This document shows, one piece after another, positions 42,265-60,742 of a stretch of DNA of 64,000 bases; the first letter of the stretch is position 1, and every line of letters starts with the position of its first letter. The DNA is from Sharpea azabuensis DSM 18934. Lineage in GTDB: Bacteria > Bacillota_I > Bacilli_A > Erysipelotrichales > Coprobacillaceae. The position numbers and the translations under genes are program-made. The stretch lies in assembly GCF_000702165.1 (NCBI RefSeq), contig NZ_JNKU01000004.1:1-64000 (forward strand). Direction: 5' to 3'. The notes under the pieces are model-generated. The model was not told where the DNA came from. It saw only the letters and a program-made list of their open reading frames with translations, and did no database searches.

Positions 42265-42282
42265 GAACTTATATGTTTTTTC

Positions 42283-42315: not shown

Positions 42316-42335
42316 ATATATCAGGAGGAATGACA

Positions 42336-43699: not shown

Positions 43700-43702
43700 T
43701 TT

Positions 43703-44449
43703 ATGAGAGTTATTGTTGTTGGATATGGTGTGATGGGAAAGAAGGTATGTAAGGCTGTTAATGAAGATGAGACATTAACACTTGCAGCAGTTGTATCTCC
43801 TGTTTTTGATCAAACACCAGAAGTCCCTTATTATACAAATATCAATGATGTGAAAGAAGAAGCTGATGCTGTTATTGACTTCTCACATCCTGCTAATTTA
43901 GAAAGCATTATGACTTATGTCCGTGCACATAAGATTCCTGTAGTTCTTGCGACAACGGGCTTTAGTGAAGAACAGCTTCAAGCTATTCATGACTTAGCTA
44001 AAGAAGTTCCTGTCTTCCAGAGCTATAACACATCTTATGGTGTTGCCATGCTTAACAAGATGGTCAAAGAATTTACACAGGATTTCTACAATCACAATTT
44101 TGATGTCGAGATTACTGAAGCTCATCATCATCGTAAGATTGATGCCCCTAGTGGTACAGCTGTAATGCTTTACAATACCGCAGCTAGCTCTATTGATGGT
44201 GCTCATCCTGTTTATGATCGTCAATCTAAACATGTCGCAAGAGAACATAATGAAATTGGTATTCAGTCTATTCGTGCGGGGACAATTTATGGTGAACATA
44301 CTGTTCTCTATGGTGGCGATGATGAACTGATCGAAATTAAACATACTGCCTTAAGCAGAGACATCTTTGCAAAAGGTGCAGTTAGCGCCTTGAAAGCTTT
44401 ATCACAAAAAGAAGTTGGATTCTATAACTTAGAAACACTATATAATTAA
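43703..44449 (+). CDS. dapB: 4-hydroxy-tetrahydrodipicolinate reductase
   Basis: 248 residues. NAD(P)-binding VVGYGVMGKKV at the N-terminus and the DapB signature EAHHHRKIDAPSGTA. It reduces the DapA product. It starts four bases after dapA. Confidence 0.95.
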   Translation: MRVIVVGYGVMGKKVCKAVNEDETLTLAAVVSPVFDQTPEVPYYTNINDVKEEADAVIDFSHPANLESIMTYVRAHKIPVVLATTGFSEEQLQAIHDLAKEVPVFQSYNTSYGVAMLNKMVKEFTQDFYNHNFDVEITEAHHHRKIDAPSGTAVMLYNTAASSIDGAHPVYDRQSKHVAREHNEIGIQSIRAGTIYGEHTVLYGGDDELIEIKHTALSRDIFAKGAVSALKALSQKEVGFYNLETLYN

Positions 44450-44470
44450 TACATGAGAGGAAATGCAAAA

Positions 44471-45784
44471 ATGGTATTACAAACACAATTTGCGGATATA
44501 AGAGGTAACGACCTCTATATCGATGGCGTTAAAGCCACAGACTTAGCGAAAAAATATGGTACTCCACTCTATGTTATGAGTGAAGGACATATCAGACATC
44601 AAATGAATGAACTCAAAGAGAAGTTCATGGACAAATATGAAAACACATTACCATTATTTGCATCCAAATCATTTAGCTGTCTTGCCATCTATAAACTTGC
44701 AAGTGAATATGGCATTGGAATTGATTGTGTCTCTGCAGGTGAAATCAGCATTGCCCTAAGAGCAGGCTTTGATCCTGATAAAATCTATTTCCATGGCAAC
44801 AACAAATTACCTAGTGAAATCGAATATGCTTTAAAACACGGGGTTACACACTTTGTCGTTGATAACTTCTATGAACTAGAATTATGTGACAAGATTGCAG
44901 GTGAATTAGATACTGTAGTTAAAGCAACAGTACGTGTTGTTCCAGGTATTAAAGCAGGTGGACATAACTTCATTCAGACTGGCCATGTTGATACAAAATT
45001 TGGCTTCTCTAGTCATTATGGTATTTATCTCAAAGCGATCAAAAAGATTCTTGATAGTAAGAATATGGAATTTGAAGGCTTACATGCCCATATTGGTTCT
45101 CAGGTCTTTGACCTCTATGCTTATATTTCAGCGATGCGTACATTTATGGGATTTGTTGATGAAATCTATAAGACATTTGGGGTTGTTGTTAGGAAGATCA
45201 ATGCTGGTGGTGGTTATGGTATTGCCTACAATAAGCTAGACCACCCTCTTGACTTTGAAACTATTACAGAAGAAATCATGAATGTCATCAGTGAAGCTTA
45301 TGAAAAACGTGGCTGGGAAAGACCAATGGTCTTAATTGAACCAGGTCGCTGGGTTGTCGGCAATGCCGGTATTACACTTTATACTGTTGGTGCGATTAAG
45401 GAAATTCCTGATGTACGTACATATGTATCCATTGATGGTGGTATGGCTGATAATATTCGTACCCCACTCTATGATGCAAAGTATGATGGCGTTGTAGCTA
45501 ATAAAGCTGGTGAGACAAAGACAAAAGTTGTCACAATTGCCGGTAAGTGCTGTGAGTCTGGGGACCTGATTTGTAAGGATCTCCATGTCACAGGCAATAT
45601 TGAAGCAGGTGATATCTTTGCCGTCTTCTCAACAGGTGCTTATAACTATACAATGTCATCTAACTACAACCAGTTACCTAAGCCAGCTGTTGTCTTTACG
45701 TATAAAGGTAAAAGTAAAGTTGTCATTAGAAGACAGACATTTGATGATCTTGTTGAATATGATGAAGATCAGGCATATGAGTAA
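44471..45784 (+). CDS. lysA: Diaminopimelate decarboxylase
   Basis: 437 residues, fold III PLP enzyme: PLP lysine in FASKSFSC, HIGSQ, GGGYGI, EPGRWVVGNAG, and CCESGD with the catalytic Cys. It makes L-lysine from meso-DAP. AGAGG precedes ATG at 44471, which I prefer over 44453. The DapB-to-DAP genes (dapH/D, dapL etc.) are elsewhere. Confidence 0.95.
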   Translation: MVLQTQFADIRGNDLYIDGVKATDLAKKYGTPLYVMSEGHIRHQMNELKEKFMDKYENTLPLFASKSFSCLAIYKLASEYGIGIDCVSAGEISIALRAGFDPDKIYFHGNNKLPSEIEYALKHGVTHFVVDNFYELELCDKIAGELDTVVKATVRVVPGIKAGGHNFIQTGHVDTKFGFSSHYGIYLKAIKKILDSKNMEFEGLHAHIGSQVFDLYAYISAMRTFMGFVDEIYKTFGVVVRKINAGGGYGIAYNKLDHPLDFETITEEIMNVISEAYEKRGWERPMVLIEPGRWVVGNAGITLYTVGAIKEIPDVRTYVSIDGGMADNIRTPLYDAKYDGVVANKAGETKTKVVTIAGKCCESGDLICKDLHVTGNIEAGDIFAVFSTGAYNYTMSSNYNQLPKPAVVFTYKGKSKVVIRRQTFDDLVEYDEDQAYE

Positions 45785-45788
45785 GCTT

Positions 45789-45811
45789 AAGGTCGAGCAA
45801 TCGACCTTTTT
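45789..45811 (+). terminator. Terminator of the lysine operon
   Basis: AAGGTCGA and TCGACCTT pair around GCAA, followed by T. Confidence 0.9.
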
Positions 45812-45916
45812 GTGTTGAAAAATGCAAAAATAAAAGCAAAAAAGACAACATAGAATCAATAATTATCATATATACTATAAGTAAGAAAGTATTAGCTATG
45901 GGAGGAGGTCATTATA

Positions 45917-46120
45917 TTGAAAGGGAAAACAAGAGCTAATATCTTATCCGTCATTATGTTTGCCTATCCATTAGTATTGGTTCTAATGCGTACATTAGGT
46001 GAAAAGCTATCTTGGTCTTTAGAGGTAGAAGTCATTATTACACTTCTGATCCTTATCCCAATCTTAATCTTTGTAGACAGGCAGTTTAAAAAGATTAAAG
46101 AAGAACTGAATCAAAAATAA
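45917..46120 (+). CDS. Small two-segment membrane protein (TTG start)
   Basis: 67 residues with membrane segments at about 9-27 and 37-55 and a charged tail. GGAGGAGG is 8 bases before the TTG. Single-gene unit with its own terminator. No family recognised. Confidence 0.6.
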   Translation: MKGKTRANILSVIMFAYPLVLVLMRTLGEKLSWSLEVEVIITLLILIPILIFVDRQFKKIKEELNQK

Positions 46121-46126
46121 TAACAG

Positions 46127-46149
46127 AAAGTCCAAATTATGGACTTTTT
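46127..46149 (+). terminator. Terminator of the 67-residue membrane gene
   Basis: AAAGTCCA and TGGACTTT pair around AATTA, with T-rich tail. Confidence 0.85.
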
Positions 46150-46208
46150 CTTTTATACATATTTCAAATGAAACTAAATGTGTTAGAATACAAAAGAGGT
46201 AAAACAAT

Positions 46209-46955
46209 ATGAAAGAAAGACAAAATCGTATTCTTGACGCTCTTACAAAGCATGAAAAACTAGAAGTCAAAGAACTTGCAGAAATGATGGAAGTTTCCCA
46301 AGTCACTATTCGTAAAGACTTAGATGCCCTAACACAACAAGGTCTCATTATCCGTAATCATGGCTATGCGACATTAAATAACAGTGATGATATGAATAAT
46401 AGATTAGCGTATCACTATGAAATGAAACAGCGCATAGCTAAGAAAGTATGTGAAGATATCCATGATGGTGAAACCATCATGATAGAATCAGGTTCTTGTT
46501 GTGCACTCGTTGCATTAGAGATTGCCCAAAGCAAGAAAAACATCACCATTATTACTAACTCAGCTTTCATTGCTGATTACATACGTAATGAAGAAGTTAA
46601 AGTTATCTTGCTTGGTGGTGAATATCAAGCATCATCCCAGGTTCTTGTTGGACCAATCACAATAAATAATGCCAAGAATTTCTTTGTCGATAAGTACTTT
46701 ATTGGTGCAGATGGCTTTTCAGAGAAATCAGGCTTTACAGGAAAGGACTATTTACGCGCTGAGACTGTCAGAGAAATGGCAAAACAGGCAACCCAGGTTA
46801 TAATCGTGACAGAAAGTGAGAAGTTTGGCCATATCGGTACAGTCAATCTCCTGGATACAAAAAATGTCGCTAAGGTTTACACGGATACCCATATTCCTCA
46901 AGAAGATGAAATCTATCTCAATGAAATGAATGTAGAAGTCATCAAAGTTGACTAA
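46209..46955 (+). CDS. DeoR-family transcriptional regulator
   Basis: 248 residues. DeoR HTH at the N-terminus (ILDALTKHEKLEVKELAEMM; VSQVTIRKDLDAL) and a DeoRC sensor domain (ESGSCCALVALEIA; ADGFSEKSGFT). These repress sugar-catabolic genes and respond to a sugar phosphate. No obvious target beside it, so it may act elsewhere. Confidence 0.9.
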   Translation: MKERQNRILDALTKHEKLEVKELAEMMEVSQVTIRKDLDALTQQGLIIRNHGYATLNNSDDMNNRLAYHYEMKQRIAKKVCEDIHDGETIMIESGSCCALVALEIAQSKKNITIITNSAFIADYIRNEEVKVILLGGEYQASSQVLVGPITINNAKNFFVDKYFIGADGFSEKSGFTGKDYLRAETVREMAKQATQVIIVTESEKFGHIGTVNLLDTKNVAKVYTDTHIPQEDEIYLNEMNVEVIKVD

Positions 46956-46982
46956 GAGTGCTATATAAAGTAGCACTTTTTT
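46955..46982 (+). terminator. Terminator of the DeoR gene
   Basis: AGTGCTA and TAGCACT pair around TATAAAG, then T5. Confidence 0.85.
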
Positions 46983-47058
46983 CATACATTTTAAGCAATC
47001 TAAATTTTACTTTTGTTTAATAAGAATGTTGTTTGTTCAAAGCCTATTCAATAATAGC

Positions 47059-47090
47059 TTTTTTTATTCTTATAGGCTGTTGCACTTATT
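47059..47090 (-). mobile_element. Orphan IS30-type left end
   Basis: On the minus strand AATAAGTGCAACAGCCTATA and the next 11 bases match the left end of the intact IS30 element at 57598-57628 with one difference. No transposase follows, so only an end is left from an old insertion or deletion. Confidence 0.65.
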
Positions 47091-47131
47091 GTGATAATTT
47101 ATCTTGTGGAAAAAGCGTGATAGAGGGCGCG

Positions 47132-47166
47132 AAAAAATGAGTAATACCTTACGGTGATGCTCATTT
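47132..47166 (-). terminator. Probable terminator of rpoN
   Basis: On the minus strand AATGAGCATCACC and GGTATTACTCATT pair imperfectly around GTAA and run into T6. It is about 60 bases after the rpoN stop. Confidence 0.65.
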
Positions 47167-47225
47167 AGCAGGGACTTTCAACATTCTGTCCTTGACTTTT
47201 GAACCAGTTTAGATAAGCCACTGAC

Positions 47226-48449
47226 TTATTTAATAGCCTTACGTTTAGTAGACGAAGGAATATTCAATTGTTGTCTATACTTGACAATTACTCGACGTGA
47301 ACAATGTAGTTCTAATTCTTCTAGTTTTTTAAGAATCTGATTATCCGAAAGTGGATGTTCTTTATCTTCACTATCAACTAATTCCACAATAGCCTTTTTA
47401 ATAGAATCACTACTATCCCCTGAGGCAGTTTGAGAAACAAGAAGTTGTTTAAGAGGATAAACCTCACCATTATAGCTGTAGTACTTATTATTTAATGTAC
47501 GTGAAATAGTAGATTCATGGAATCCTGTTTCACTTGCAAGTTGTGATAAAGTACATGGATATAACTCATCATCGTATAAGAAATAACCACTTTGGATATG
47601 AACTAAAGCATTTGCGACAAATAATATTGTTTGATTTCTCTTTGTAAGATTTTCAATTAAGAAATGTGCATCATTAAAATAAGCTTTCATATTCTCATCA
47701 TTCTTTACCTTCTCATAAAGAAGATTATTTACTATGAGTTCAGGTTGATTGATAGGGGTAATCATGATATTGGAATCTTCTACCTCTATTAAAATATCTG
47801 GTGAGATATAATCATCCTGGGATGAACTATACATATTACATGGGAAAGGATTACAAGAACGTATTTCATAAAATAAATGGTCTATTTCTTCTTTTTTCAA
47901 TCCTGTTTTCTGTTTAATGAGTGAATAGTTCTGAGTTAAGATCACATCCTGATAATCTCTAAATAGTGTATAGCTTTTTGTTTTATTATTATTTTTTAAT
48001 TGAATGATAATTGAATCAATCGCATCAGCTGCACCAACACCATTTGGTTCAAAAGAATGTAATATATCTAAATGAGCATTAAGAATTTCTCTATCTATAT
48101 TCAAGTCAGTGATATATTGATCAATAGGGTAGGATAAGAACCCACTATCGTCTAATGATTCAATCAAATAATCCATCAAATCTTCATTATATGGACGAGT
48201 ACATGCACTTAATTGTAAATAGAGATCATCTTTTAAAGAACGTTTATTAGAAATACTTTCAATAAACTGCTGTGTATCATAGTTTTTAGGTGATTTCAGT
48301 TCTAAAAAAGGATTGGTTTCTAATACTTGTTGAACAACTTTATTGATATCATCAATGTTGTCAGTAAGGAAATCTAACGATTTTAATAGTTTTTGATTTA
48401 ATTTTAATGTTTGCTTTAATGTTTGAATATATTGCATTTTTTGTTTCAT
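47226..48449 (-). CDS. rpoN: RNA polymerase sigma-54 factor
   Basis: About 407 residues. Region I is Gln/Leu-rich and binds activators (KQKMQYIQTLKQTLKLNQ), then the core-binding domain, a HTH (SQLASETGFHESTISRTLNN) and a C-terminal RpoN box SRRVIVKYRQQLNIPSSTKRK-like segment. ATG at 48455 is also possible; GAGGGTGG has better spacing to 48449. It lies divergently from a LevR-type activator whose target PTS has a -24/-12 promoter. Confidence 0.9.
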   Translation of the reverse strand: MKQKMQYIQTLKQTLKLNQKLLKSLDFLTDNIDDINKVVQQVLETNPFLELKSPKNYDTQQFIESISNKRSLKDDLYLQLSACTRPYNEDLMDYLIESLDDSGFLSYPIDQYITDLNIDREILNAHLDILHSFEPNGVGAADAIDSIIIQLKNNNKTKSYTLFRDYQDVILTQNYSLIKQKTGLKKEEIDHLFYEIRSCNPFPCNMYSSSQDDYISPDILIEVEDSNIMITPINQPELIVNNLLYEKVKNDENMKAYFNDAHFLIENLTKRNQTILFVANALVHIQSGYFLYDDELYPCTLSQLASETGFHESTISRTLNNKYYSYNGEVYPLKQLLVSQTASGDSSDSIKKAIVELVDSEDKEHPLSDNQILKKLEELELHCSRRVIVKYRQQLNIPSSTKRKAIK

Positions 48450-48599
48450 ATTCATCCACCCTCACTATTATAGGTAGTGTCAAAAGTTTGCATGATGCAA
48501 TGAACATTCACTACCCCTCAATGTTCTCTATATAAGCAGCTGTTAACTGTACTTATCCTGTCAGGTTTATGTTTTTCCAAAACAAAAATGGATTATCCG

Positions 48600-49212
48600 T
48601 GCTATACTTGTTAGCAACTAAACCATCAAGAAAGACGGATAACCCACATGGCTAGTAAAACACAGATTAAGAAAGTAATTGATAAATTCTCTAAGCAGAA
48701 TTTCAAGTTCCTTAAGTTCATTGAGCTTCTGCTTCTCGTGAAGAACATTCCTGAAAACGTCAGTAACGCTCTCAAGGACACTGACCTCATCTATCACATT
48801 GATGAAGCGCACAATCATATCTCATGGATCATCGATTACTTCGACAGAAAAATCAATCCTGCCGTAAGATCTGGGCACGGTCACTTGGATCTAAGGAACG
48901 CATGCAGGAGTATGCCGACTTTACCGTTGACAGCAGGCCTCCTGTGTTCAGAAAACCTGAATCCCAGACATACAGGCAGATGAGCTTCGATGACTACAAC
49001 AGGGAGCACATTGAAAAGCACGGAGAGCCAATAAGAGAAGTCAGACGCCTCAGCGTGACACCCTCAATGCCGTCAAGTCCATTCACGACGTACTCATGCA
49101 CTACGATGAGATTCCTGACGACCTGGTGTTCATAACCGATGGGAACCCCATCTACAATGCAGATCAGCTCTTCTACCATATCAATGGCACTGACTATGCA
49201 ATGGAGTTCTAG
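48600..49212 (+). pseudogene. Frameshifted DDE-type transposase relic
   Basis: Three frames in succession make one protein: MASKTQIKKVIDKFSKQNFK from 48648, then RKIWARSLGSKERMQEYADF from about 48865, then HDVLMHYDEIPDDLVFITDG from about 49080, ending in a stop at 49212. The VFITDGNPIY segment with its Asp looks like a DDE transposase core. The stretch is visibly richer in G and C than its neighbours. The following 49213-49500 holds no gene I can see. Confidence 0.65.
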
Positions 49213-49548
49213 CATGAAGATTTCCTGAACATATGCTTGCCGGAAATAGCCTCCGGACAGACGATACCTTCATTATGCCCTGTTTCGGACGCTTTTTATC
49301 TTTTCAGCAGATGCATTGAATTTAGCAATTTTCAAAATCAAGTTGAAACCAGTTTTGGAAGAACTATCTGAGTGAATTTAGTCATGAAACAGGCACCTGA
49401 ACCTGGTTTTCATAAACTGTTTACTCTACCGATTATATAGCAAAATTCGTGCCAATTATTATCTAGATATTTATCAAAATAGTATACCGAATAACTATTG
49501 TTGCTCACATGTTTTATTTGTTTTATCATGAACTATGAGGTGATTTCA

Positions 49549-52227
49549 TTGAAAGAAAAAATCATGTTGTTGATCATTGGAAGAATGGATCAAAATTCAT
49601 ATGAAGAATGTCAATCTGTACAATTATCAAAAGAATTGAAACTAAGCAGAAACCAAGTAACAAAACTATTAAATGAACTATTTAATGACAAGAAGCTTAT
49701 TAAAATCAAAACAAGCCCTGTTTTATATCTTTCAAGAGGTTCTCTTGAAAGTAAATATAAGAAGAAGCTTTTATCAGATGAATACAAATCATTAGATGAA
49801 TTGGAAGCTGAATTAAACAATCAGACAGAATTAAAGAACTTTGAAAAGCTTATTGGGTCTAATGAAAGCATGTATCAGATTGTAGAGAAGATTAAGGCAA
49901 CAGTATCTTACCCACCAGTAGGATTACCTATGTTGTTTTATGGACAGACTGGTACTGGTAAATCATTTATGGCTAAACTTACGTATGAGTATTGTGTAGA
50001 TACAGGCCTAATTGATGCATCTAAGAATTTTGTACAGGTGAACTGTTCAGAATATGCAAATAACCCAGAATTACTCACAGCTAATCTGTTTGGCTATAAA
50101 AAAGGTGCTTTTACAGGTGCAGATAGTGATAACTTAGGTTTATTACATTTTGCGGATGGTGGTGTATTATTCTTAGATGAAGTGCATTGTTTAAATGCAG
50201 AATGTCAAGAAAAATTATTTCTTTATATGGACCAGGGAATCTATCATTTAGTAGGTGACAACAATAAATGGTATAAATCAAAATGTAGAATTATATTTGC
50301 GACAACAGAAGAGCCACAAAAAGCATTATTAAAAACATTCCTTAGACGTATTCCAGTTATTCTTACAATTCCATCTCTTGCACAAAGAGGAGAAAATGAA
50401 AAGCTAGAACTCATGTATAGCTTTTTGAAGAACGAAGAGAAGCGTGTGAATAAAACAATTCTTATTTCATCTAACGTTTATGAGTTGTTATTGAATCACA
50501 CATTTGTAGGTAATATTGGTGAACTGACTAATACTATTCAGGCAAGCTGTGTGAGTGCATTATATAAAAGTAATTCAAATACGTTAGAAATTCATGCTTA
50601 TGATTTACCTGAAAATATTAGAAATAGTATGGATGTTTCCTCTATGATTATGAAGAAGCATAAGCTTGTCTCTCTTAACACACTTCTTCCTGTATCAGAT
50701 CAGGGTATTGTTAAAGATTTTTATCAATCATTAATTAATCTTAAAAGAGATCAGTCATTTGCAGTAAATGCACAGAATACTGTAGATAGATATTTTGAGA
50801 AACTTATATTTAATGATAATCGTGCTGGTTCAATTGATTATCTTACAAACTATCTAGAAAAGATATTTAATAATATCACTGAACATTATGGCTTTAGGAC
50901 TTCACATAATGAGTTGATTGCATTGGCTACATATGTCTCAGAATTCTCTAAAAATACATATCTCACAAATAACTGGATCAATGAGAATTATGATGAAGTA
51001 AAAAACTTAAAGAAATATCTAAAACTTGAACTTCATCGTGAATATAAAATAGGACAGGATGTTTCTCATTACTTAAAGAATAATATGAATCAGGGTATTG
51101 ATGACTTTGTAGAATGTATTATCTGTATTTGTATGATTAAGTATTTTGTACATTCTGGTGAAGATCTCACAATTGCGATTATTATTGCACATGGTTATTC
51201 AACTGCAAGTTCTATTGCAGAAGCAGCCAATAGAATGTTGAATAGTTATATATTTGATGCGATTGATATGCCGTTAGATGTGGATGTTCAAACCATTACA
51301 AGAAAGATCAATGATTACATTGCATATGTTGGTAATATCTCAAAGCTTTATTTATTGGTTGATATGGGTTCTCTTGAAGAAATATATCAGGGATTAGATA
51401 CAAGTAATGCGGATATTGCCTTAGTAAACAATATTAATACTAAATGTGCGCTAGAAATAGGACAGGGAATTAAACTCAATAAAACAGTGACTGAAGTAAT
51501 CGATTCTATTCTTAAGGAAAACATCTATAAAACGCATGTAGAACTTAAGAAAAAGAAAGAACCTATTGTGATTTGTTCTTGTGCATCAGGTCTTGGAACA
51601 GCTGATAAGATCAAAGAAATCTTATTCAATTCTTTACCTGAAGATTCTAATCTAAAGATTATTACTTATGATTATCCTGCTTTAATACGTAAACAGGTAT
51701 ATGATCAGTTAATGAATGATTATGAGGTTGTATGTGTCATTGGAACACTTGATCCAAACATTGAATCTATGAAATATATAGGCATACAAGAATTGATTAT
51801 TAACGAAAGTCAGAATGCCATAGAAGTATATTTTGGAAAGTATATGACTCAAGTTCAGATGGAGATATTCGAAAAGAATATCTTGCGTAATTTCACATTA
51901 TCCAATGTCATGAATAACTTGACTATATTAAATCCAGATAAACTACTTGAACATGTTGCGAAAGCAATTGATTATTTACAGAATATCCTACATAAGAGAT
52001 TTAAGAATAGAACATGCTTTGGGTTATATGTTCATATTTGTTGTCTTGTAGAAAGATTAGTGACAAGACAACCTATTTCAAACTTTACTGATCTTGACTT
52101 TAAAGAAAAGCATCAAGAATTTATAGATCAAGTAAATATCTCAATGAAAGAAGTTAAGACATACTACAACGTTGAGATTCCAGATGAAGAAATAGAATAT
52201 ATATACAACTATATTATTAATGATTAG
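49549..52227 (+). CDS. Sigma-54-dependent LevR-type PTS activator
   Basis: 892 residues. N-terminal HTH (SVQLSKELKLSRNQVTKLLN), AAA+ domain with Walker A YGQTGTGKS, the sigma-54 contact loop GAFTGA and Walker B FLDEVH, then PRD, an EIIA-Man-like module (TIAIIIAHGYSTASSIAEAANRML), an EIIB-Gat-like module (ICSCASGLGTADKIKEI) and a final PRD. This is the LevR/GfrR domain order; phosphorylation by the PTS sets its activity. The frame opens at 49498, but GAGGTGA is well placed before TTG at 49549. Its target is probably the PTS operon directly downstream. Confidence 0.9.
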   Translation: MKEKIMLLIIGRMDQNSYEECQSVQLSKELKLSRNQVTKLLNELFNDKKLIKIKTSPVLYLSRGSLESKYKKKLLSDEYKSLDELEAELNNQTELKNFEKLIGSNESMYQIVEKIKATVSYPPVGLPMLFYGQTGTGKSFMAKLTYEYCVDTGLIDASKNFVQVNCSEYANNPELLTANLFGYKKGAFTGADSDNLGLLHFADGGVLFLDEVHCLNAECQEKLFLYMDQGIYHLVGDNNKWYKSKCRIIFATTEEPQKALLKTFLRRIPVILTIPSLAQRGENEKLELMYSFLKNEEKRVNKTILISSNVYELLLNHTFVGNIGELTNTIQASCVSALYKSNSNTLEIHAYDLPENIRNSMDVSSMIMKKHKLVSLNTLLPVSDQGIVKDFYQSLINLKRDQSFAVNAQNTVDRYFEKLIFNDNRAGSIDYLTNYLEKIFNNITEHYGFRTSHNELIALATYVSEFSKNTYLTNNWINENYDEVKNLKKYLKLELHREYKIGQDVSHYLKNNMNQGIDDFVECIICICMIKYFVHSGEDLTIAIIIAHGYSTASSIAEAANRMLNSYIFDAIDMPLDVDVQTITRKINDYIAYVGNISKLYLLVDMGSLEEIYQGLDTSNADIALVNNINTKCALEIGQGIKLNKTVTEVIDSILKENIYKTHVELKKKKEPIVICSCASGLGTADKIKEILFNSLPEDSNLKIITYDYPALIRKQVYDQLMNDYEVVCVIGTLDPNIESMKYIGIQELIINESQNAIEVYFGKYMTQVQMEIFEKNILRNFTLSNVMNNLTILNPDKLLEHVAKAIDYLQNILHKRFKNRTCFGLYVHICCLVERLVTRQPISNFTDLDFKEKHQEFIDQVNISMKEVKTYYNVEIPDEEIEYIYNYIIND

Positions 52228-52252
52228 TGTGCCATTAATTGGCACACTTTTT
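52226..52252 (+). terminator. Terminator of the activator gene, overlapping a -24/-12-like string
   Basis: AGTGTGCCA and TGGCACACT pair perfectly around TTAAT, then T4. The right arm plus tail reads TTGGCACACTTTTTGCTT (52239-52256), which also fits the sigma-54 promoter pattern (GG, 10 bases, GC). Confidence 0.75.
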
Positions 52253-52273
52253 GCTTGTTTAAAAGTGGAAGCT

Positions 52274-52308
52274 AGTTCTACAGATTAAGCGTAACTAATC
52301 TATAAACT
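52274..52308. promoter_or_regulatory. Inverted repeat upstream of the sigma-54 promoter
   Basis: AGATTA (52282-52287) and TAATCT (52296-52301) are the core of a longer imperfect dyad from AGTT to AACT. It could be an activator or repressor site; it ends right at the -24 element. Confidence 0.5.
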
Positions 52309-52324
52309 GGCACGAAGTTTGCTT
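52308..52324 (+). promoter_or_regulatory. Sigma-54 (-24/-12) promoter of the PTS operon
   Basis: TGGCACGAAGTTTGCTT matches the sigma-54 consensus (TGGCACG, 4 bases, TTGCW) at every defined position, 31 bases before the IIA start. rpoN and a sigma-54 activator lie within 5 kb. Confidence 0.9.
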
Positions 52325-52355
52325 GAACTAAGATGAGTGGAAAGGAGTGTAAATC

Positions 52356-52769
52356 ATGGCAAAAATCATACTTGCATCACATGGAGGATTATCTTCAGGA
52401 ATGCTTGATTCAGTAAAAATGATTGTTGGGGAATTAGCTGCTGATGTAGAAACATATAGTTTGTTACCAGGACGCAATCCTAACGAATATGTCAATGAAT
52501 TAAAAGAAAGGATCAGTACTTCTTTAGAAGAATTCATAATTGTATGTGATATCAAAGGGGGTAGCGTTTATAACGCTTTAATCCAGTTGCTGGATATGGA
52601 TAATGTAGAAATTATTTCAGGAATGAACATGAATATAATTTTAGAATTAGTTATTAAAAACAGTAGCGGATGTATTGATGTTGATAATGCCTTAAAAGAA
52701 GGAAAAGAAGGAATTCAATTAAAAAATAAAGATAATATTGTCGTTAATACAGAAGACGAAGATTTCTAA
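52356..52769 (+). CDS. Mannose-family PTS component IIA
   Basis: 137 residues. Phospho-accepting His9 in ILASHGGLSSGM and the EIIA-Man fold (CDIKGGSVYNAL). Receives phosphate from HPr in the cytoplasm and passes it to IIB. AAGGAG precedes the ATG. First gene of the sigma-54 operon. Confidence 0.92.
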   Translation: MAKIILASHGGLSSGMLDSVKMIVGELAADVETYSLLPGRNPNEYVNELKERISTSLEEFIIVCDIKGGSVYNALIQLLDMDNVEIISGMNMNIILELVIKNSSGCIDVDNALKEGKEGIQLKNKDNIVVNTEDEDF

Positions 52770-52786
52770 AAAAGGAAGGTGGATTT

Positions 52787-53254
52787 ATGTTAGTAGGGTT
52801 AAGAGTTGATCATCGTTTATTGCATGGTCAGGTAGCATTTTCTTGGACAAGTGCATTAGGAGCTGATTGCATCCTGATTGCAAATACAGCAGTTACTAAT
52901 GATAATCTTAGAAAAACAGCTATTAAAATGGCAAAGCCAGCAGGAACAAAATTAGTTATTAAGAATATTGAAGATTCAATCAAAGCATTAAATTCAGGAG
53001 TAACAGATAAATACAAGTTATTTATTATTGTTGAAAGCGTAAAAGATGCTTACGAATTGATGACAAAAGCAGATATTCATTCTGTAACACTTGGTGGAAC
53101 AAAGGCTACAAATGAAACAAAGAATATTTCTAAAGCAGTGAATCTAACTGATGAAGAAATTTCATTAGTAAAGGAACTAATCGAGAGAGGTGACGAAGTT
53201 GAAATTCGAATGGTTCCAACAGATAAAAAGATGTTAGCTAAAAACGTTCTATAA
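52787..53254 (+). CDS. Mannose-family PTS component IIB
   Basis: 155 residues; active His13 in VDHRLLHGQVAFSWT and the later SVTLGGTKATNETK loop. Transfers phosphate to the incoming sugar. AGGTGG precedes the ATG. Confidence 0.92.
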   Translation: MLVGLRVDHRLLHGQVAFSWTSALGADCILIANTAVTNDNLRKTAIKMAKPAGTKLVIKNIEDSIKALNSGVTDKYKLFIIVESVKDAYELMTKADIHSVTLGGTKATNETKNISKAVNLTDEEISLVKELIERGDEVEIRMVPTDKKMLAKNVL

Positions 53255-53269
53255 AGGAGGAAAAAGATT

Positions 53270-54046
53270 ATGATGTTGAAGGCGTTTTTACTAGGCTGTA
53301 TCGCATTCTTAGGGAAATGTGATTTAGCTACAGGTACAAATCAGTTACAAAGACCTATTATTTTGGGCCCATTAGTAGGGTTAGTGTTAGGTGATCTTGA
53401 TGCAGGAATTAAGATTGGTGCAACGCTTGAACTAGCATTCTTAGGTTCTTATTCAGTTGGTGCATTTATTCCGCCAAACGTTATTGTTGGTGGTGTATTA
53501 GGAACAGCATTTGCGATTGTTACAGGTAAGGGACCTGCAGTTGCATTTACAATGGCGTTCCCAATCGCTTTACTTGCAGTAGCAATTGATAATATCTTCT
53601 TCTCATTAGTTAGACCATTGCTTGGTAAAGTAGCTGATAACTATGCTGAAAAAGGTAATGTACATATGGTAAGTGTCATTCATATGGCTACAGGGTTCTT
53701 AACATGCACAGTACTATTTTTAATGGTGTTCATTGGATTCTCAGTTGGCTCAGATGCAATGAAGAAATTTGTAGAAGCTATTCCAGCTGTTATTACTAAC
53801 GGATTAACTATCGCAACAGGTTTATTACCAGGCATTGGGTTTGCTATGTTAGCTCAGATGATCATGAATAAGAAGGTCGTACCATTCTTCTTCTTAGGAT
53901 TTGTATTATCAGCATACTTCAAATTACCAGTAGTTGGTATCGCACTCTTAGGTCTTATTATCATTTTTACAACAATTGATTTCACAGGTAAAAAAACACA
54001 GTTAGCAACAGATGTAGTAGAGGAGGATGATGACGATGACTTCTAA
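53270..54046 (+). CDS. Mannose-family PTS component IIC
   Basis: 258 residues, about seven to eight membrane segments; LGPLVGLVLGDLDAGIKIGATLELAFLG is a family region (shown in part). It forms the sugar channel with IID. GGAGG precedes the ATG; the next gene overlaps its acidic end. Confidence 0.92.
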   Translation: MMLKAFLLGCIAFLGKCDLATGTNQLQRPIILGPLVGLVLGDLDAGIKIGATLELAFLGSYSVGAFIPPNVIVGGVLGTAFAIVTGKGPAVAFTMAFPIALLAVAIDNIFFSLVRPLLGKVADNYAEKGNVHMVSVIHMATGFLTCTVLFLMVFIGFSVGSDAMKKFVEAIPAVITNGLTIATGLLPGIGFAMLAQMIMNKKVVPFFFLGFVLSAYFKLPVVGIALLGLIIIFTTIDFTGKKTQLATDVVEEDDDDDF

Positions 54047-54884
54047 AGTAGGCACACCAATCAATGCTGAAAACGGTGGCGTTATTACAGAAAAAGATTT
54101 AGTTAGAATGTTCTGGAGATCATTACCAATGGAATTCTCATGGCACTATGAAAGACAGATGCATATGGGATTTGAATTCATGGTAGGTCCAGCTCTTAAA
54201 AAGATTTATAAAGATGATCCTGAAGGATTAAAAGAAGCATTACATAGAAACTTGGAATTCTTTAACTGTACAGCTCATGTCACACCTTTCATTGGTGGTA
54301 TCACACTAGCTATGGAAGAGATGAATAGAGCAAATGATGATTTTGATGCATCATCTATCAATGCAGTAAAAGCTGCGTTAATGGGTCCTTTAAGTGGTAT
54401 TGGTGATTCACTTATCTTAGGAACTCTTCGTGTATTAGCAGTAGGTATTGGTACATCTCTTGCTATTAAGGGTAATATTCTTGGACCAATCCTATTCTTC
54501 TTAATTTTCAATATTCCTACTTTCATCTTACGTTATGTATGTGCAATTAAAGGATATGAATTAGGAGCTAACTATTTAGAAAAAGTTCAGGCCTCTGGTT
54601 TGATGGAAAAATTCATGTTAGCAGCTGCAATTTTAGGGGTTATGGTCATTGGTGGTATGACAAACGAACTAGTTGTAGCTAAAACAGCATTAAAAATCGG
54701 TAGTGGTAAGTCAGCTACACAGATTCAAAGTGTATTAGATGGTATTATGCCAGGCTTATTACCTTTAGCGGCAACTGCAATCTATTATAAGTTGTTACAG
54801 AAAAAGACAAATGTCATTCTTATGATTATTGGTACAGCCATCTTTGGCATTATCTGTGCACAATTTGGAATCTTAGCAGCTTAA
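54036..54884 (+). CDS. Mannose-family PTS component IID
   Basis: 282 residues with the IID start (ITEKDLVRMFWRSLPMEFSW), GPLSGIGDSLILGTLR and C-terminal membrane segments. AGGAGG is 9 bases before the ATG at 54036, chosen over two earlier in-frame ATGs that have no room for a binding site. Confidence 0.92.
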   Translation: MTSKVGTPINAENGGVITEKDLVRMFWRSLPMEFSWHYERQMHMGFEFMVGPALKKIYKDDPEGLKEALHRNLEFFNCTAHVTPFIGGITLAMEEMNRANDDFDASSINAVKAALMGPLSGIGDSLILGTLRVLAVGIGTSLAIKGNILGPILFFLIFNIPTFILRYVCAIKGYELGANYLEKVQASGLMEKFMLAAAILGVMVIGGMTNELVVAKTALKIGSGKSATQIQSVLDGIMPGLLPLAATAIYYKLLQKKTNVILMIIGTAIFGIICAQFGILAA

Positions 54885-54918
54885 AAAAATATTTATAAAT
54901 AAAAAAGGAGAAAATTTT

Positions 54919-55914
54919 ATGTTTAATTTTGATGAAAAGAAAGTTTATACAGATCATTTGAATGGGGTAAATATGATTCCTCAGGTAGAAAAGGTAGTAG
55001 ATAAAATTTGTGAAGATGGATATAAGAATATCTTCTTAGTTGGTATTGGTGGAACACTATTATATGCAGGACAAATTTTCCATACAGCTAGACAGTTAGG
55101 ATGCTCTTTACCATTATATTTAACTAATGCTACAGACTTCTTATATGAAGGTGATGCAAACTTTACAAAAGATTCAGTAGTAGTTGTTGCTTCATTATCT
55201 GGTCATACAGTAGAAGTAGAACAGGCTATTGATAAAGCACATGAAGTAGGTGCTAGAGTTATTGGTTATGTAGAAGTAGTTGATACTCCAATCGCAAACA
55301 AAGTTGATGAATTAGTTACAACAGTAGGTGGAGAATATTACTGGTGGTATACAGTTGTCTTAAGATTCATGAAGAATGCTGGACAATTCGATAAGTATGA
55401 TGAATTAGTATCTGATATGCAGAACTTACCAAAAGATATCGTTCAGGTATATAAAGATGCAGATGCTCAGATGAAAGAATATGCAGATAAATACTGTGAT
55501 TCATCACTTACATACTTAGTAGCTTCAGGTAACCTTGAAAACTGGGCTCAATGTTATGGTATGTGTATTATGGAAGAAATGCAGTGGATGCGCACACGTC
55601 CTATTTCAGCAGCTAACTTCTTCCATGGTTTATTAGAAGTTATCGAAAGAGATACTACAGTATTATTAATCAAGGGTGAAGATAAGACTAGACCAGAAAT
55701 GGATCGTGTTGAAAACTTTGTTGGTAAAATTTGTGCAAATGTTACAACTATCGATACTAAGAACTTTGAATTACCTGGTATCAGAGATGAATTCAGAGGT
55801 ATCTTATCTCCAATCGTAATGAGATCAGCATTCATGAGACTTAATGTTCATCTAGAACACAACAGACGTCATCCATTAGACATCAGAAGATACTATAAGT
55901 GCTTAGAATACTAA
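54919..55914 (+). CDS. SIS-domain sugar-phosphate deglycase (FrlB/GfrF-like)
   Basis: 331 residues with two SIS domains (GIGGTLLYAGQIF and SLSGHTVEVEQAID in the first; LVASGNLENWAQCYG opening the second) and a conserved tail HNRRHPLDIRRYY. The length and pairing with a sigma-54-controlled mannose-type PTS recall the Salmonella gfr operon, whose GfrE/GfrF split phosphorylated glucoselysine and fructoselysine into a hexose phosphate and lysine. That substrate is an inference; other Amadori-type compounds or amino sugars are possible. Confidence 0.8.
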   Translation: MFNFDEKKVYTDHLNGVNMIPQVEKVVDKICEDGYKNIFLVGIGGTLLYAGQIFHTARQLGCSLPLYLTNATDFLYEGDANFTKDSVVVVASLSGHTVEVEQAIDKAHEVGARVIGYVEVVDTPIANKVDELVTTVGGEYYWWYTVVLRFMKNAGQFDKYDELVSDMQNLPKDIVQVYKDADAQMKEYADKYCDSSLTYLVASGNLENWAQCYGMCIMEEMQWMRTRPISAANFFHGLLEVIERDTTVLLIKGEDKTRPEMDRVENFVGKICANVTTIDTKNFELPGIRDEFRGILSPIVMRSAFMRLNVHLEHNRRHPLDIRRYYKCLEY

Positions 55915-55924
55915 AAAGAGAAAA

Positions 55925-55953
55925 CGGGCAAGGCATTATATAATGCCTGCTCG
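55925..55953 (+). other. Strong hairpin between the SIS and HAD genes
   Basis: The 18-base palindrome AGGCATTATATAATGCCT with a CGGGC/GCTCG extension forms a long stem but lacks a T run. It may protect or process the mRNA, or terminate weakly. Confidence 0.6.
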
Positions 55954-55964
55954 TATTTATAATT

Positions 55965-56609
55965 ATGATTAAAACTGTTATTTTTGATATGGATGGTGTG
56001 ATCTTTGATAGTGAAACCATGTATATAAATGATTTGATAAGATTTTTTAAACAGCATGATATAGAAATACAAGTAAGTGATTGTATTCCTCTCATTGGTA
56101 TTGATAGTAAATTATATTATGAACATGCATACACAATGTGGAATGGAAAAATTGATTTCATGACATTTAAAAATATGCTTCAAGAATATTTTCGTTCATT
56201 AGATCGTGATTATAAAGCGGTAGTTAGACCTCAGATCTATTCCGTTTTAGAACACTTAAGCAAACATTATAAAATAGCATTAGCGTCCTCTTCTAGGTTA
56301 TATACTATTAATAATGCATTGGATCAGGCTGGTTTAAGAAAGTACTTTTCACTTATAGTAAGTGGTGAACAATTCAAAGAAAGTAAACCAAATCCAGAAA
56401 TATATTTACATACAATCAAAGAGTTAAATGTGAATAAAGATGAAGCTGTTATTATTGAGGATTCACCTAAAGGAATATTAGCTGCAAATAAAGCTGGTAT
56501 TAAGGTATTAGCTTTAAAAGATGATAAGTTTGGCTTGGATCAGAGCCAGGCAGATATAATTATTGATGAATTAAATGATATTATAAAGTTTATAGAGAAA
56601 GGGTCATAA
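55965..56609 (+). CDS. HAD-IA phosphatase / beta-phosphoglucomutase-like
   Basis: 214 residues: motif I VIFDMDGVIFDSE, motif II SSSR, motif III ESKPNPEIY and motif IV IIEDSPKGI, with a helical cap between. It may remove or move phosphate on the hexose phosphate made by the PTS/deglycase pathway. No clear ribosome-binding site precedes it. Confidence 0.85.
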   Translation: MIKTVIFDMDGVIFDSETMYINDLIRFFKQHDIEIQVSDCIPLIGIDSKLYYEHAYTMWNGKIDFMTFKNMLQEYFRSLDRDYKAVVRPQIYSVLEHLSKHYKIALASSSRLYTINNALDQAGLRKYFSLIVSGEQFKESKPNPEIYLHTIKELNVNKDEAVIIEDSPKGILAANKAGIKVLALKDDKFGLDQSQADIIIDELNDIIKFIEKGS

Positions 56610-56613
56610 AAGT

Positions 56614-57252
56614 ATGAATGCTATGTTAATTGTCGTTATAGTGATTGCTATTATTGGTACTATTCCAGTAATCATCAGAAAGAAACTCCTAAATAATTAT
56701 CTAACATTACTCCAAAACAATGATATTAAGGCAATAGAAGACTTAATGGCAACTAAACTAGCTAAGATATGTATTCCCCAATTTAATAGAGAATACTTAC
56801 TTTTAAATGTTTATCTAAAGATAAATGATGACAAACAAATAGATACTCTAGTAAACAATATAATGGATCATGTTCCTATGAATTCTAAGCAGAAGTCTGC
56901 TCTTGCACAATCAGTATTCTATAGATATGTAGATAAGAAAAATGCATCTATGATTGATTATTTGTTGGAAATGGTTAGCACAACAAATAATCATGCCCTA
57001 TGTAGACAGATGGATATGGTCAATGATACTTTAATTAAGGGTGGAAATAAGTATTATGACGAACTAAAATCTAATCTTGCAGATGTAGAATATACTAAAA
57101 ACAATGAAGATACTCCCTATCTTGAATTCTTATTATCAGTTATCTATAAGAATATGGGTAATGAATCAAAGAGTAAGGAATATAAGAATAAAGCTTTAGA
57201 AGATAGTAAAGGAACTATATATGAATCTTTAATTCATTATCAAAATTATTAG
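56614..57252 (+). CDS. Membrane-anchored helical protein, unknown function
   Basis: 212 residues. One N-terminal membrane segment (about 4-21), then an all-helical stretch whose spacing (LLLNVYLKINDDKQ; LSVIYKNMGNESKSKEYKNKAL) resembles TPR-like repeats. It starts five bases after the HAD gene and may belong to the sugar operon. I do not recognise a family. Confidence 0.55.
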   Translation: MNAMLIVVIVIAIIGTIPVIIRKKLLNNYLTLLQNNDIKAIEDLMATKLAKICIPQFNREYLLLNVYLKINDDKQIDTLVNNIMDHVPMNSKQKSALAQSVFYRYVDKKNASMIDYLLEMVSTTNNHALCRQMDMVNDTLIKGGNKYYDELKSNLADVEYTKNNEDTPYLEFLLSVIYKNMGNESKSKEYKNKALEDSKGTIYESLIHYQNY

Positions 57253-57253
57253 G

Positions 57254-57521
57254 ATGATTGAAAAGATTCCTTACCGGAAAGACAGCCTAATTACAGTTGT
57301 GATGCCAAATTTAAATTACAATATCCCTCAGAAAAAAGATACCAATCCGTTGGAAATTCAAATATTGAATATGATAAAAAAGGATAATAAAATCAGTACA
57401 AAAAATGTCAATGACGTTAGGAGTAAGTTCCAAGACTATAAAACGTCACATTAAAAATATGGGTATTGTCCGATTTATTGGTCGTGGTTTCAATGGACTC
57501 TGAGAAATAATTGATGATTAG
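57254..57521 (+). pseudogene. Decayed C-terminal end of an AlbA/RecG-like ATP-binding protein
   Basis: The frame from 57254 begins EKIPYRKDSLI, recalling the 'YP..ALREALVNAL' start of the divergent-AAA/RecG-like HTH proteins. Around 57400 the match jumps frame to LGVSSKTIKRHIKNMGIVRF and GRGFNGL, then a stop replaces the expected Trp before EIID. The middle is deleted. The intact gene would bind ATP and DNA; this copy cannot. Confidence 0.5.
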
Positions 57522-57548
57522 AAATACAATTTAACATCATTTATAGCA

Positions 57549-57587
57549 AAGCTATAAGAATTCAATAAAATGAACCTTATAGCTTTT
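57549..57587 (+). terminator. Terminator before the IS30 element
   Basis: AAGCTATAAG and CTTATAGCTT pair, followed by T5. A second small hairpin (TTATAGC/GCTATAA) overlaps its left side. Confidence 0.7.
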
Positions 57588-57600
57588 TTGCGTAGATAAT

Positions 57601-58670
57601 AAGTGCAACAACCTATAAGAATAAAAAAGTTCATGGGTTCAATGATAAAATGTGAGTGACAAAACAAACATTTATCAAGGAGAATCCCATGAACTACAGC
57701 CATCTTAACATAAATGAGAAAACAGTCATATCTTTGCTTGCTTCTTCTGACGTATCGATTCGTGAAACAGCGAAGCAGCTTGGAAGAAGTCCGAGTACGA
57801 TTTCCAGAGAATTGAAACGTAACCAAACAAATGAACGAGATTCCCGGTATATCCCTTCGAAAGCCCAGGAAACATATCAAAACAGAAAACATCATTGTGG
57901 CAGAAAATATATTTCCTGTGAGGATACGCTATCCTACGTGAAATCCAGAATAGAAGATCATTGGTCGCCTGAACAAATCGCAAATAGAAAAACAGCACAC
58001 GAAGTTCCTTCTGCATCAACGATCTATCGAATGATTCACCAGAAAAGGCTTGGTCCTATCACAATGGCACGTCTAAGAAGAAAAGGAAACTTTACAAGAC
58101 CAGCCGAAACCAGGGGAAAATTCAATGATGGCGGCAGGACAATCAAAAAACGCCCCAAAGATGTCTATAAACGAAAAGAATTAGGACATTGGGAGGGTGA
58201 TACTGTTGTATCTGGTAAAATTGATCGCAAGTGCAAATCTTCAGCCTGTTTTGTGACGCTGGCAGAGCGAAAATCAAGGATGTATATTGCGATAAAGGTT
58301 CCAAACAGAACAGCCGAAATTGTCAGCCAGGCTATCATCAAAGCATTAAAAGATTTTCCCGAAGACATGGTCAAGACGATAACGTTCGACCGCGGAAAAG
58401 AAATCGCCGGTTATGAAGATATAGAAAATGCGCTGCATTGCAGTACCTACTTCTGCGATCCATACTGTGTCTGGCAAAAAGGAAAAAATGAAAACACCAA
58501 TGGACTGTTAAGAGAATTCTATCCAAAAGGAATGGACCTATCACTTGTCGATGAAGATGAGCTAAAGCATAATCTTGAACTGATGAATAATCGGCCACGA
58601 AAGTGCCTTGGCTATAAGACACCAAATGAAGTTATGAACGAAATAGACTCACATACATCGTGTTGCACTT
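57601..58670 (+). mobile_element. Intact IS30-family insertion sequence
   Basis: About 1,070 bases. The ends carry AAGTGCAACA and its inverse TGTTGCACTT, and AAT flanks both sides as a 3-bp target duplication. It encodes one full-length transposase. A matching solo end lies at 47059-47090. Confidence 0.8.
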
Positions 58671-58672
58671 AA
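57689..58672 (+). CDS. IS30-family transposase
   Basis: 327 residues. N-terminal HTH (SIRETAKQLGRSPSTISRELKRN, cited in part) and a DDE domain: LGHWEGDTVV with the first Asp, ITFDRGKE with the second, and KNENTNGLLREFYPKG with the Glu. AAGGAG precedes ATG at 57689. The stop codon uses the two A of the flanking target duplication. Confidence 0.92.
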   Translation: MNYSHLNINEKTVISLLASSDVSIRETAKQLGRSPSTISRELKRNQTNERDSRYIPSKAQETYQNRKHHCGRKYISCEDTLSYVKSRIEDHWSPEQIANRKTAHEVPSASTIYRMIHQKRLGPITMARLRRKGNFTRPAETRGKFNDGGRTIKKRPKDVYKRKELGHWEGDTVVSGKIDRKCKSSACFVTLAERKSRMYIAIKVPNRTAEIVSQAIIKALKDFPEDMVKTITFDRGKEIAGYEDIENALHCSTYFCDPYCVWQKGKNENTNGLLREFYPKGMDLSLVDEDELKHNLELMNNRPRKCLGYKTPNEVMNEIDSHTSCCT

Positions 58673-58761
58673 TTTGACAAATCATCAATACCAATTTTGG
58701 CCGTGAGTACAAAATGAATATATAAATTATTGGATATGAATAATTAAATAAATTGAATTCA

Positions 58762-58807
58762 ATTTACATTCTTGCTAATATAAATTATAATATTAGCAAG
58801 AATGTAA
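58762..58807 (+). promoter_or_regulatory. abiE promoter inside a perfect 19-bp inverted repeat
   Basis: TTTACATTCTTGCTAATAT (58762-58780) and its exact inverse (58789-58807) flank 8 bases. The promoter TTTACA, 17-base spacer, TATAAT (58785-58790) lies in it. AbiEi antitoxins bind inverted repeats at their own promoter, so this is the likely operator. Confidence 0.85.
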
Positions 58808-58821
58808 AAGGCGGTGAGAGA

Positions 58822-59400
58822 ATGAAAGGAGTAATGGATTCTAAAAAAATTGAGGTTTTGAATGTTAAAAAATTAAAGAATGTGAATGTATCGAGACAGT
58901 CTATTTATAATTTTATAAAAAAGAATTGTATGGAAAAAGTTGGCCCAGGTATTTATATTTCAAAAGATGTGTTGGAAGATGAAGCTTATGTTTTATCACA
59001 GCGTTGCCCAAAAGGAGTTATTTCTCATGATGATGCCTTATATTATTATGGTCTGGTTGATCGAGAACCTTTTGTGCATTGTATTACAATTTATAGTGGA
59101 TATAATCCTTCTGCTCTAACAAACTCTGGTTATAAGGTTTATACCGTGAAAAAGGGACTTTTAGATTTAGGAAAGACTAAAATCACAAATCAATTTGGTC
59201 ATGAAATCCCAATGTATGATTTGGAAAGAACAATTTGTGATTTAGTGAGAAGTAGACGTAATTTCGAAATTCAGGATTTTAATATGGCGATTAAAACTTA
59301 TTTACAAAGAAATGATAAGGATCTTAATCGTTTAATGGTGTATGCAAAAGCATTTCGAATTGAAAAGATAATTAGACAATATATGGAGGTTTTATTGTAA
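58822..59400 (+). CDS. abiEi: AbiEi-type antitoxin
   Basis: 192 residues. N-terminal winged helix (VSRQSIYNFIKKNCMEKVGPGIYI) and the AbiEi C-terminal domain with ISHDDALYYYGL and MYDLERTICDLVRSRR. It represses its own operon and counters AbiEii (type IV). The frame opens at 58753, inside the operator; GGTGAG before ATG at 58822 sets the start. The stop overlaps the toxin start (TAATG). Confidence 0.85.
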   Translation: MKGVMDSKKIEVLNVKKLKNVNVSRQSIYNFIKKNCMEKVGPGIYISKDVLEDEAYVLSQRCPKGVISHDDALYYYGLVDREPFVHCITIYSGYNPSALTNSGYKVYTVKKGLLDLGKTKITNQFGHEIPMYDLERTICDLVRSRRNFEIQDFNMAIKTYLQRNDKDLNRLMVYAKAFRIEKIIRQYMEVLL

Positions 59401-60239: not shown

Positions 60240-60439
60240 ATTGAGTGAAACAATATTTTAATTGTATGTATTTTTAGAATGAAATGGTTTGTATTCAATA
60301 TGTACTTACAGTGACTCCAAAATGAGTGCAGAATATACATAAAAGATTTGGAATAAAAAATTATACCAGATTGCAAATAGAAATTGGAAATAAGGAAAAG
60401 TACCTTATTGTTAAATGTAATTGGAAATTAGGTTCAATA

Positions 60440-60470
60440 AAAGTCTGACAATGTATTGCCAGACTTTTTA
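60440..60470 (-). terminator. Terminator after the small membrane gene
   Basis: AAAGTCTG and CAGACTTT, with inner CAAT/ATTG pairs, form the stem; T-rich on both strands. The 200 bases before it (60240-60440) hold nothing I can identify. Confidence 0.7.
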
Positions 60471-60675
60471 CTACTTACGTTTAAATACAAGAAAGAGATG
60501 ATCACACCATAATGCAATGAGAATAAGAGGTCGACTGAAGACTGTAAAGCGATAAAAGTTAGAAAAGAAGACATCAAAATTTCTCAAATAGTATTCATAT
60601 GCGAAATGGTCAAACAGATAGAATGCAATAAATATGATGGAAGCTATGATGAAGAATAGGCGATGTTTTTTTCAT
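60471..60675 (-). pseudogene. Small membrane protein gene with +1 frameshift in an A7 run
   Basis: Starting at ATG 60675 with GGAG upstream, the first two codons MKK are followed by a run of seven A. With six A the frame would continue as KKHRLFFIIASIIFIAFYLF and on for 67 residues to TAG at 60471, two membrane segments in all; with seven it stops after 21 codons. It may be a broken gene, a sequencing error, or a gene rescued by polymerase slippage. It lies 67 bases after the activase gene. Confidence 0.6.
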
Positions 60676-60742
60676 AAAGACTCTCTCCTCTCTAAGAAAA
60701 TATTACCATAGCTGAAAAAATAGCCAGCTTATCATATGTGAC

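Follow-up and report, generated by a model that had tools for sequence, protein, structure and literature searches.

The 64,000-nt stretch of contig NZ_JNKU01000004.1 of Sharpea azabuensis DSM 18934 analysed here (henceforth referred to as 'the window') carries what we consider, with a probability of about 75%, to be a self-contained sugar-uptake cassette gained by horizontal transfer, with sigma-54 (RpoN) as a private, operon-specific factor. The parts named in a first-pass annotation of this DNA are all present and lie within 9 kb: rpoN, a LevR-type activator with a GAFTGA motif, the EIIABCD subunits of a mannose-type phosphotransferase system (PTS), a gene for a SIS-domain protein and perfect -24/-12 sites. 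That annotation had overlooked the rpoN promoter, the promoter array, an insertion sequence (IS) remnant, the insert containing the cassette and the recurrence of the pattern across the order Erysipelotrichales. The rpoN gene (47226-48455, minus strand) encodes a protein of 409 aa with the RpoN box SRRVIVKYRQQL, and its three Sigma54 Pfam domains (AID, CBD and DBD) and its score against TIGR02395 (281.7 bits, above the equivalog cut-off of 277.35) place it in the sigma-54 family. The activator (49498-52227, plus strand) has the domains of a LevR-type bacterial enhancer-binding protein (bEBP), namely an AAA+ domain (Sigma54_activat, 127.8 bits) with GAFTGA at residue 203, an EIIA-man domain and C-terminal PRD domains; His565 in the EIIA-like domain and His846 in PRD2 are its candidate histidines (residues numbered from the listed start). 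The listed start is probably too early, as a TTG at 49549 that follows the ribosome-binding site GAGGTGAT appears to be the true one. Three perfect -24/-12 sites accompany these genes. Site 1, TGGCACACTTTTTGC (52240-52254), and site 2, TGGCACGAAGTTTGC (52308-52322), are on the plus strand, the latter 68 bp past the former and 48 nt upstream of the EIIA start, and we presume site 2 to be the main PTS promoter; the third, TGGCACGAATTTTGC (49440-49454, minus strand), faces rpoN.

To establish whether the genome holds other sigma-54 parts we used the draft assembly (2.41 Mb in 91 contigs, listed as 100% complete), which contains one rpoN and one true sigma-54 activator; a second PF00158 match is a Clp ATPase and was rejected. 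Perfect TGGCACN5TTGC sites occur six times, three of them in the module within 3 kb, and the remaining three are all intragenic, in a permease gene (antisense), a cdsA-like gene and a glycosyltransferase gene (functions judged by eye). By comparison, the 38 of 43 family genomes that lack a full-length rpoN contain a mean of 2.3 perfect sites each (86 in 38), and TGGCAYN5TTGC is found 32 times in the Sharpea genome versus 25 times in a congener without rpoN, G031 (G labels denote genomes and L labels loci). Outside the module there is thus no excess of promoters over rpoN-less relatives, as far as consensus sites in this draft genome are concerned, and because these counts sit at background no additional sigma-54 regulon is visible. 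Under the same scope, the genome contains no other activator or promoter set, which is our working definition of a dedicated sigma-54 cassette. The first-pass annotation had supposed that the sigma factor, if the genome had no other sigma-54 promoter set, could be dedicated to one diet-derived sugar, and the scan, with its single activator and its background level of promoters elsewhere, supports dedication to one operon. In the family as a whole (43 genomes), full-length rpoN and strong activators are found in the identical five genomes and in equal counts (1, 2, 1, 1 and 1).

The cassette lies within a 13,451-bp insert (46986-60436) relative to congener G031, in which the flanks 42207-46985 and 60437-64000 are adjacent. 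The flanks correspond to positions 16000-11221 (93.8% identity) and 11219-7654 (89.9%), respectively, of the matching G031 stretch, L180. Homology with Faecalibacillus faecis (L064) extends over 47224-57293, with DNA identities of 85.9% for rpoN, 92.6% for the activator and 95.4% for the PTS part (up to 57.3 kb), and the EIIB, EIIC and SIS proteins are 98% identical between the two species. Kandleria vitulina DSM 20405 is a further carrier of the cassette. ClpC, on the other hand, is 98% identical to that of G031, 84% to that of G010 and 77% to that of F. faecis. Judged by the empty site in G031 and by cassette proteins up to 98% identical to those of F. faecis against 77% for ClpC, the cassette is probably a horizontal gain. 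A different pattern was found with G010, where rpoN (94.4% at the DNA level), the activator together with the first promoter (94.9%) and the available part of the HAD gene behind the SIS gene (94.5%) are near-identical to the window, whereas the PTS part is only ~66% identical and the SIS protein 39%, which indicates replacement of the PTS half within an otherwise constant regulatory frame.

The same arrangement recurs across the order. In a survey of 315 genomes, 265 had no rpoN and the other 50 contained 67 copies (one in 37 genomes, two in 11, three in 1 and five in 1); these counts exclude 19 matches to rpoN that scored ≤31.9 bits and 10 to the activator that scored ≤68 bits, and two split matches were merged. 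An activator was located within 10 kb of rpoN in 62/67 cases and within 4 kb in 54/67, and the other five rpoN genes are on contigs carrying no activator at all. We read 66 of the 67 loci (the window included, the G138 rpoN left out): 56 contain a LevR-type activator and 51 the full set of rpoN, LevR-type activator and mannose-type PTS, while in six loci of a single genus the partner of rpoN is a convergent activator (with a PrpR_N domain in the single case scanned). When the region from 150 bp upstream to 40 bp downstream of the first PTS start was scored, 33 of 48 PTS operons downstream of an activator had a perfect -24/-12 site and 10 a one-mismatch site, versus 7 and 8, respectively, of 459 other open reading frames (ORFs). 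The p-values for this enrichment are overstated because the loci are related, and the background is if anything too high because it includes some unrecognised module genes. Distances among RpoN proteins and among their activators co-vary (Mantel r 0.71 for 52 modules, 0/2000 permutations). The five RpoN proteins of G052 share 25-38% mutual identity, and so are not fresh duplicates. No rpoN outside the order was found in samples of the class (247 genomes) and of the phylum (149 genomes), both of which include order members. In L061 (G010:C1:1964000-1982000), the second module of the single-contig genome G010, the activator and rpoN genes overlap within a single operon, beside a PTS and a DUF2961 protein.

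The sites before EIIA repeat at intervals of 67/68 bp, with two in the window, two in G027, six in G012 (two of them with one mismatch) and six plus a degenerate one in G010; more than one perfect site before the PTS is present in 7/46 modules. Between the tandem sites of the window we noted by eye an imperfect palindrome, AGATTA-N8-TAATCT, which is a candidate activator site. An intrinsic terminator-like stem behind the activator gene (52226-52248, plus strand; RNA fold -15.8 kcal/mol, z -3.68) provides with its 3' arm the -24 half of site 1, and the T-run also lies within that site. We rejected the terminator-embedded promoter as a general design, since only 8/46 modules have a stem (≥6) at that place. 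Two-mismatch matches in the window were marginal (54 found versus 34 expected) and were left unused. As for rpoN itself, TGGCACGAATTTTGC recurs unchanged 31-33 bp upstream of the gene in L064 and L062, and perfect sites precede the listed rpoN start by 31 bp in G012, 33 bp in G010 (second module) and 24 bp in G027. In the window the corresponding site is followed by a segment of ~0.96 kb (48469-49431) and only then by the ribosome-binding site of rpoN, so that the promoter appears displaced. At this segment the alignment with the intergenic regions of G010 and G012 breaks, and the corresponding intervals of G012, G010 and G027 lack it. We infer that it is a decayed IS remnant of no assigned family. 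It contains no intact transposase ORF, and a search of the plasmid collection with a 73-aa piece of it gave no match. Among 64 rpoN upstream regions, 9 perfect and 4 one-mismatch sites were found, and 12 of these 13 regions belong to the 23 nearest relatives of the window rpoN.

How the cassette might work can be outlined from its parts. LevR-type activators are switched on by HPr-mediated phosphorylation near PRD1 and inhibited by EII-mediated phosphorylation of PRD2 (PMC4987338). That His565 and His846 lie in the domains where such residues are expected only suggests phosphorylation control by HPr and EIIB here. When the sugar is absent, the cognate EIIB would phosphorylate PRD2 and keep the activator off; when the sugar is present, the phosphate would pass to the sugar, and the activator would oligomerise and open RNA polymerase-sigma-54 at the -24/-12 sites before EIIA, leading to production of the transporter and the SIS enzyme. 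The latter would split the sugar conjugate that has been imported and phosphorylated, which may be fructoselysine-6-P or glucoselysine-6-P. The ancestral arrangement would also let this activator fire rpoN from its sigma-54 promoter, thereby closing a positive loop; in this strain the presumed IS remnant sits between the loop promoter and rpoN.

Since other Bacillota use one rpoN for several activators (e.g. four intact bEBPs in Enterococcus faecalis; PMC8262876), we considered whether the sigma-54 of the window could be an ordinary global factor that by chance lies beside one of several target operons. The unpaired activators in some genomes of the order (25 of the 87 kept) would fit this, and they weigh against a private factor, as does the fact that our search would miss weak or non-consensus sigma-54 promoters elsewhere in a draft of 91 contigs. 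However, the single activator, the lack of promoter excess, the proximity of rpoN to an activator in 62/67 cases, the several diverged copies per genome and the absence of rpoN from 265/315 genomes make a global factor improbable. Two further points count against parts of the reading that we prefer: the empty site alone may also reflect loss in the congener instead of gain here, and autoregulation of rpoN is not general, as a sigma-54 promoter is present in only 13/64 upstream regions.

The presumed IS remnant raises the different question of whether this strain has only a relic of the cassette, in decay, with rpoN cut off from its promoter and the system no longer inducible. The remnant splits rpoN from the promoter and carries terminator-like stems on the minus strand, and in the window no sigma-70-like site is listed immediately upstream of rpoN; the cassette may therefore be poorly expressed here, which again weakens the case for a working unit. 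Weak rpoN-like fragments in two relatives, G005 and G011 (three stops in that of G011), also fit a relic. In contrast, the rpoN, activator, PTS and SIS ORFs of the window are intact and their proteins are 88-98% identical to those of F. faecis, rpoN is 95.6% identical to the G010 protein, and an IS remnant can hold an outward promoter. We thus regard a relic as unlikely, albeit less so than a global factor, and favour the self-contained cassette with a private sigma-54.

As for the substrate, the first-pass annotation had proposed an Amadori-type sugar. The SIS enzyme (54919-55914) has as its nearest PDB matches 2a3n (205 bits) and 8glr (202 bits), both of which we take to be Salmonella STM4540, that is, GfrF; 3eua, annotated as a fructose-amino-acid-6-P deglycase, scores 106 bits and GlmS-type chains ≤31 bits. 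Glu220 and His236, presumably its catalytic residues, are invariant in nine aligned sequences. The module also has the composition of a gfr-type operon (LevR-type activator, sigma-54 promoter, EIIABCD and a GfrF-like SIS protein), and the resemblance to GfrF is in line with the proposal. Other results are not: the SIS protein reaches only 78.8 bits against the NCBIfam cut-off of 430 for the fructoselysine-6-P deglycase equivalog, and its identity as a deglycase hence stays that of a candidate; the module contains a single SIS gene where gfr has the two deglycases GfrE and GfrF; and DagR, the best family match of the activator, scores 457.8 bits against a cut-off of 1400. It is therefore a serious, if somewhat less favoured, possibility that the substrate is no Amadori compound and that the enzyme acts on another amino sugar, as a glucosamine-type isomerase or deaminase, against which stand the match to 2a3n and 8glr well above the GlmS-type chains and the conserved Glu/His pair. 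Since the text and a figure legend of PMC12675984 give opposite assignments for the substrates of GfrE and GfrF, we make no choice between fructoselysine and glucoselysine. A NanE-like protein (family by eye) follows the PTS in L065 (G029), which suggests that this cassette handles another sugar.

The helix-turn-helix (HTH) and RpoN box of sigma-54 contact the -12 and -24 regions (PMC6028918), and in a few modules the promoter cores co-vary with the box. The window box reads SRRVIVKYR, and its Arg pair is kept in 62/66 proteins; the box is absent in two, and the second Arg is replaced in two, L125 (SRSAIAKYR) and L150 (SRQLIAKLR), which are the only modules whose promoters read TGCCA for TGGCA. 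The two cases look independent, because the L150 rpoN (split by a frameshift in the assembly and omitted from the tree) is ≤36% identical to any other and is nearest to L106, not L125. In L152 and L154 the box SRRRIA[AD][YV]R accompanies the promoter core TGGCGC; L107, L117 and L129, which form one clade, share ATGC at -12 in their rpoN and PTS promoters alike; the L144 and L148 promoters have TTTC; and the L065 sites twice contain one extra spacer base. However, L140 combines ATGC with an HTH of the ordinary kind, an argument against a simple code, and the cases are few and were found after the fact. The covariation suggests private promoter codes. We tentatively extend this, with somewhat less than even confidence, to a picture of Erysipelotrichales as an order without a resident sigma-54, in which mobile PTS cassettes each bring a private sigma-54 and have diverged to distinct sigma-54/promoter codes able to coexist in one cell. 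The RpoN-box domain also occurs outside sigma-54: a 937-aa protein in L066 (5821-8634, minus strand), from a genome without full-length rpoN, has an RpoN-box-type DNA-binding domain fused to a LevR-like AAA+/PRD/EIIA body (Pfam), and is apparently a sigma-54 reading head reused in an activator.

The closest known system is Salmonella gfrABCDEF/GfrR, which likewise combines a LevR-type bEBP, a sigma-54 promoter, a mannose-family PTS and a SIS deglycase (PMC4987338, PMC12675984); Salmonella, however, has one rpoN regulon with many bEBPs and two deglycases, whereas here rpoN travels with the operon, which has one SIS gene and tandem promoters. In the Bacillus LevR-lev system and the mannose PTS of Lactobacillus and Enterococcus a PRD-domain activator also adjoins its PTS operon, and mannose PTS and sigma-54 are linked in all Firmicutes (PMC3162934), but these bacteria rely on one genome-wide sigma-54 (with the four bEBPs of E. 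faecalis) instead of a cassette-borne factor per operon. Several sigma-54 factors whose tasks are partly distinct, with as many as four rpoN genes per organism, are described in proteobacteria such as Rhodobacter, rhizobia, Ralstonia and Xanthomonas (PMC12316311), where they serve wider functions (nitrogen, flagella, symbiosis); the Erysipelotrichales copies, up to five per genome, each lie beside their own activator and usually a PTS. The same paper reports that sigma-54 and its bEBPs are scarce in Erysipelotrichia, with PTS enrichment, and that sigma-54 promoters upstream of rpoN, indicative of autoregulation, are enriched in this and other classes, but its available sections describe neither linkage to a single activator and PTS nor arrays of promoters nor the exchange of cassettes. 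In Faecalibacterium prausnitzii, a fructoselysine PTS operon that is variable and possibly mobile has been reported (PMC12136445). Among the titles and abstract openings listed in searches of open-licence literature, none describes a separate sigma-54 for each PTS operon, a replaced PTS half or promoter cores that co-vary with the RpoN box. Sigma-54 is commonly described as a single global factor that many activators share. Here it would behave as a pathway part, with one sigma-54, one activator and one transporter operon that are moved and swapped together, and with several such sets in some genomes. A gut commensal could in this way acquire a sugar pathway without dependence on host regulators, and the diverged sigma-54/promoter pairs constitute a natural series in which DNA recognition by the RpoN box and HTH can be tested, and a possible source of orthogonal expression parts.

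The remaining genes of the cassette are, like the SIS gene, all on the plus strand: EIIA of the mannose family (52356-52769), EIIB of the sorbose subfamily (52787-53254), EIIC (53270-54046), EIID (54027-54884) and, behind the SIS gene, a HAD-family sugar phosphatase/mutase-like protein (55965-56609), the last conserved enzyme of the cassette, and a 212-aa protein without a Pfam match (56614-57252) that is also present in L064 and L063. Further along the insert, the interval 57656-60239 contains a gene for an AbiEii-type toxin (PF08843), which has a partner upstream; a transposase gene of IS30-like type (by eye) is located at 57656-58672.

Searches of mobile elements gave rpoN matches of ≤32.3% identity in the plasmid collection, among the matches listed (25 of 187 records), and matches of <60% identity throughout in the phage collection (15 records). 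Three regions from the plasmid collection provided a view of rpoN-activator linkage outside the order. A Lactobacillus amylovorus plasmid (L209) carries a short EIID, a SIS gene and rpoN amid IS elements and tet(W); in a Priestia region rpoN lies in a glycolytic neighbourhood with neither PTS nor activator; and in Aerococcus tenax (L210) rpoN is divergent from EIIABCD and an activator, the same design beyond Erysipelotrichales. On a conjugative plasmid of Enterococcus faecium (L156), a 64.6% identical SIS fragment adjoins IS1216, with another SIS/PTS operon nearby.

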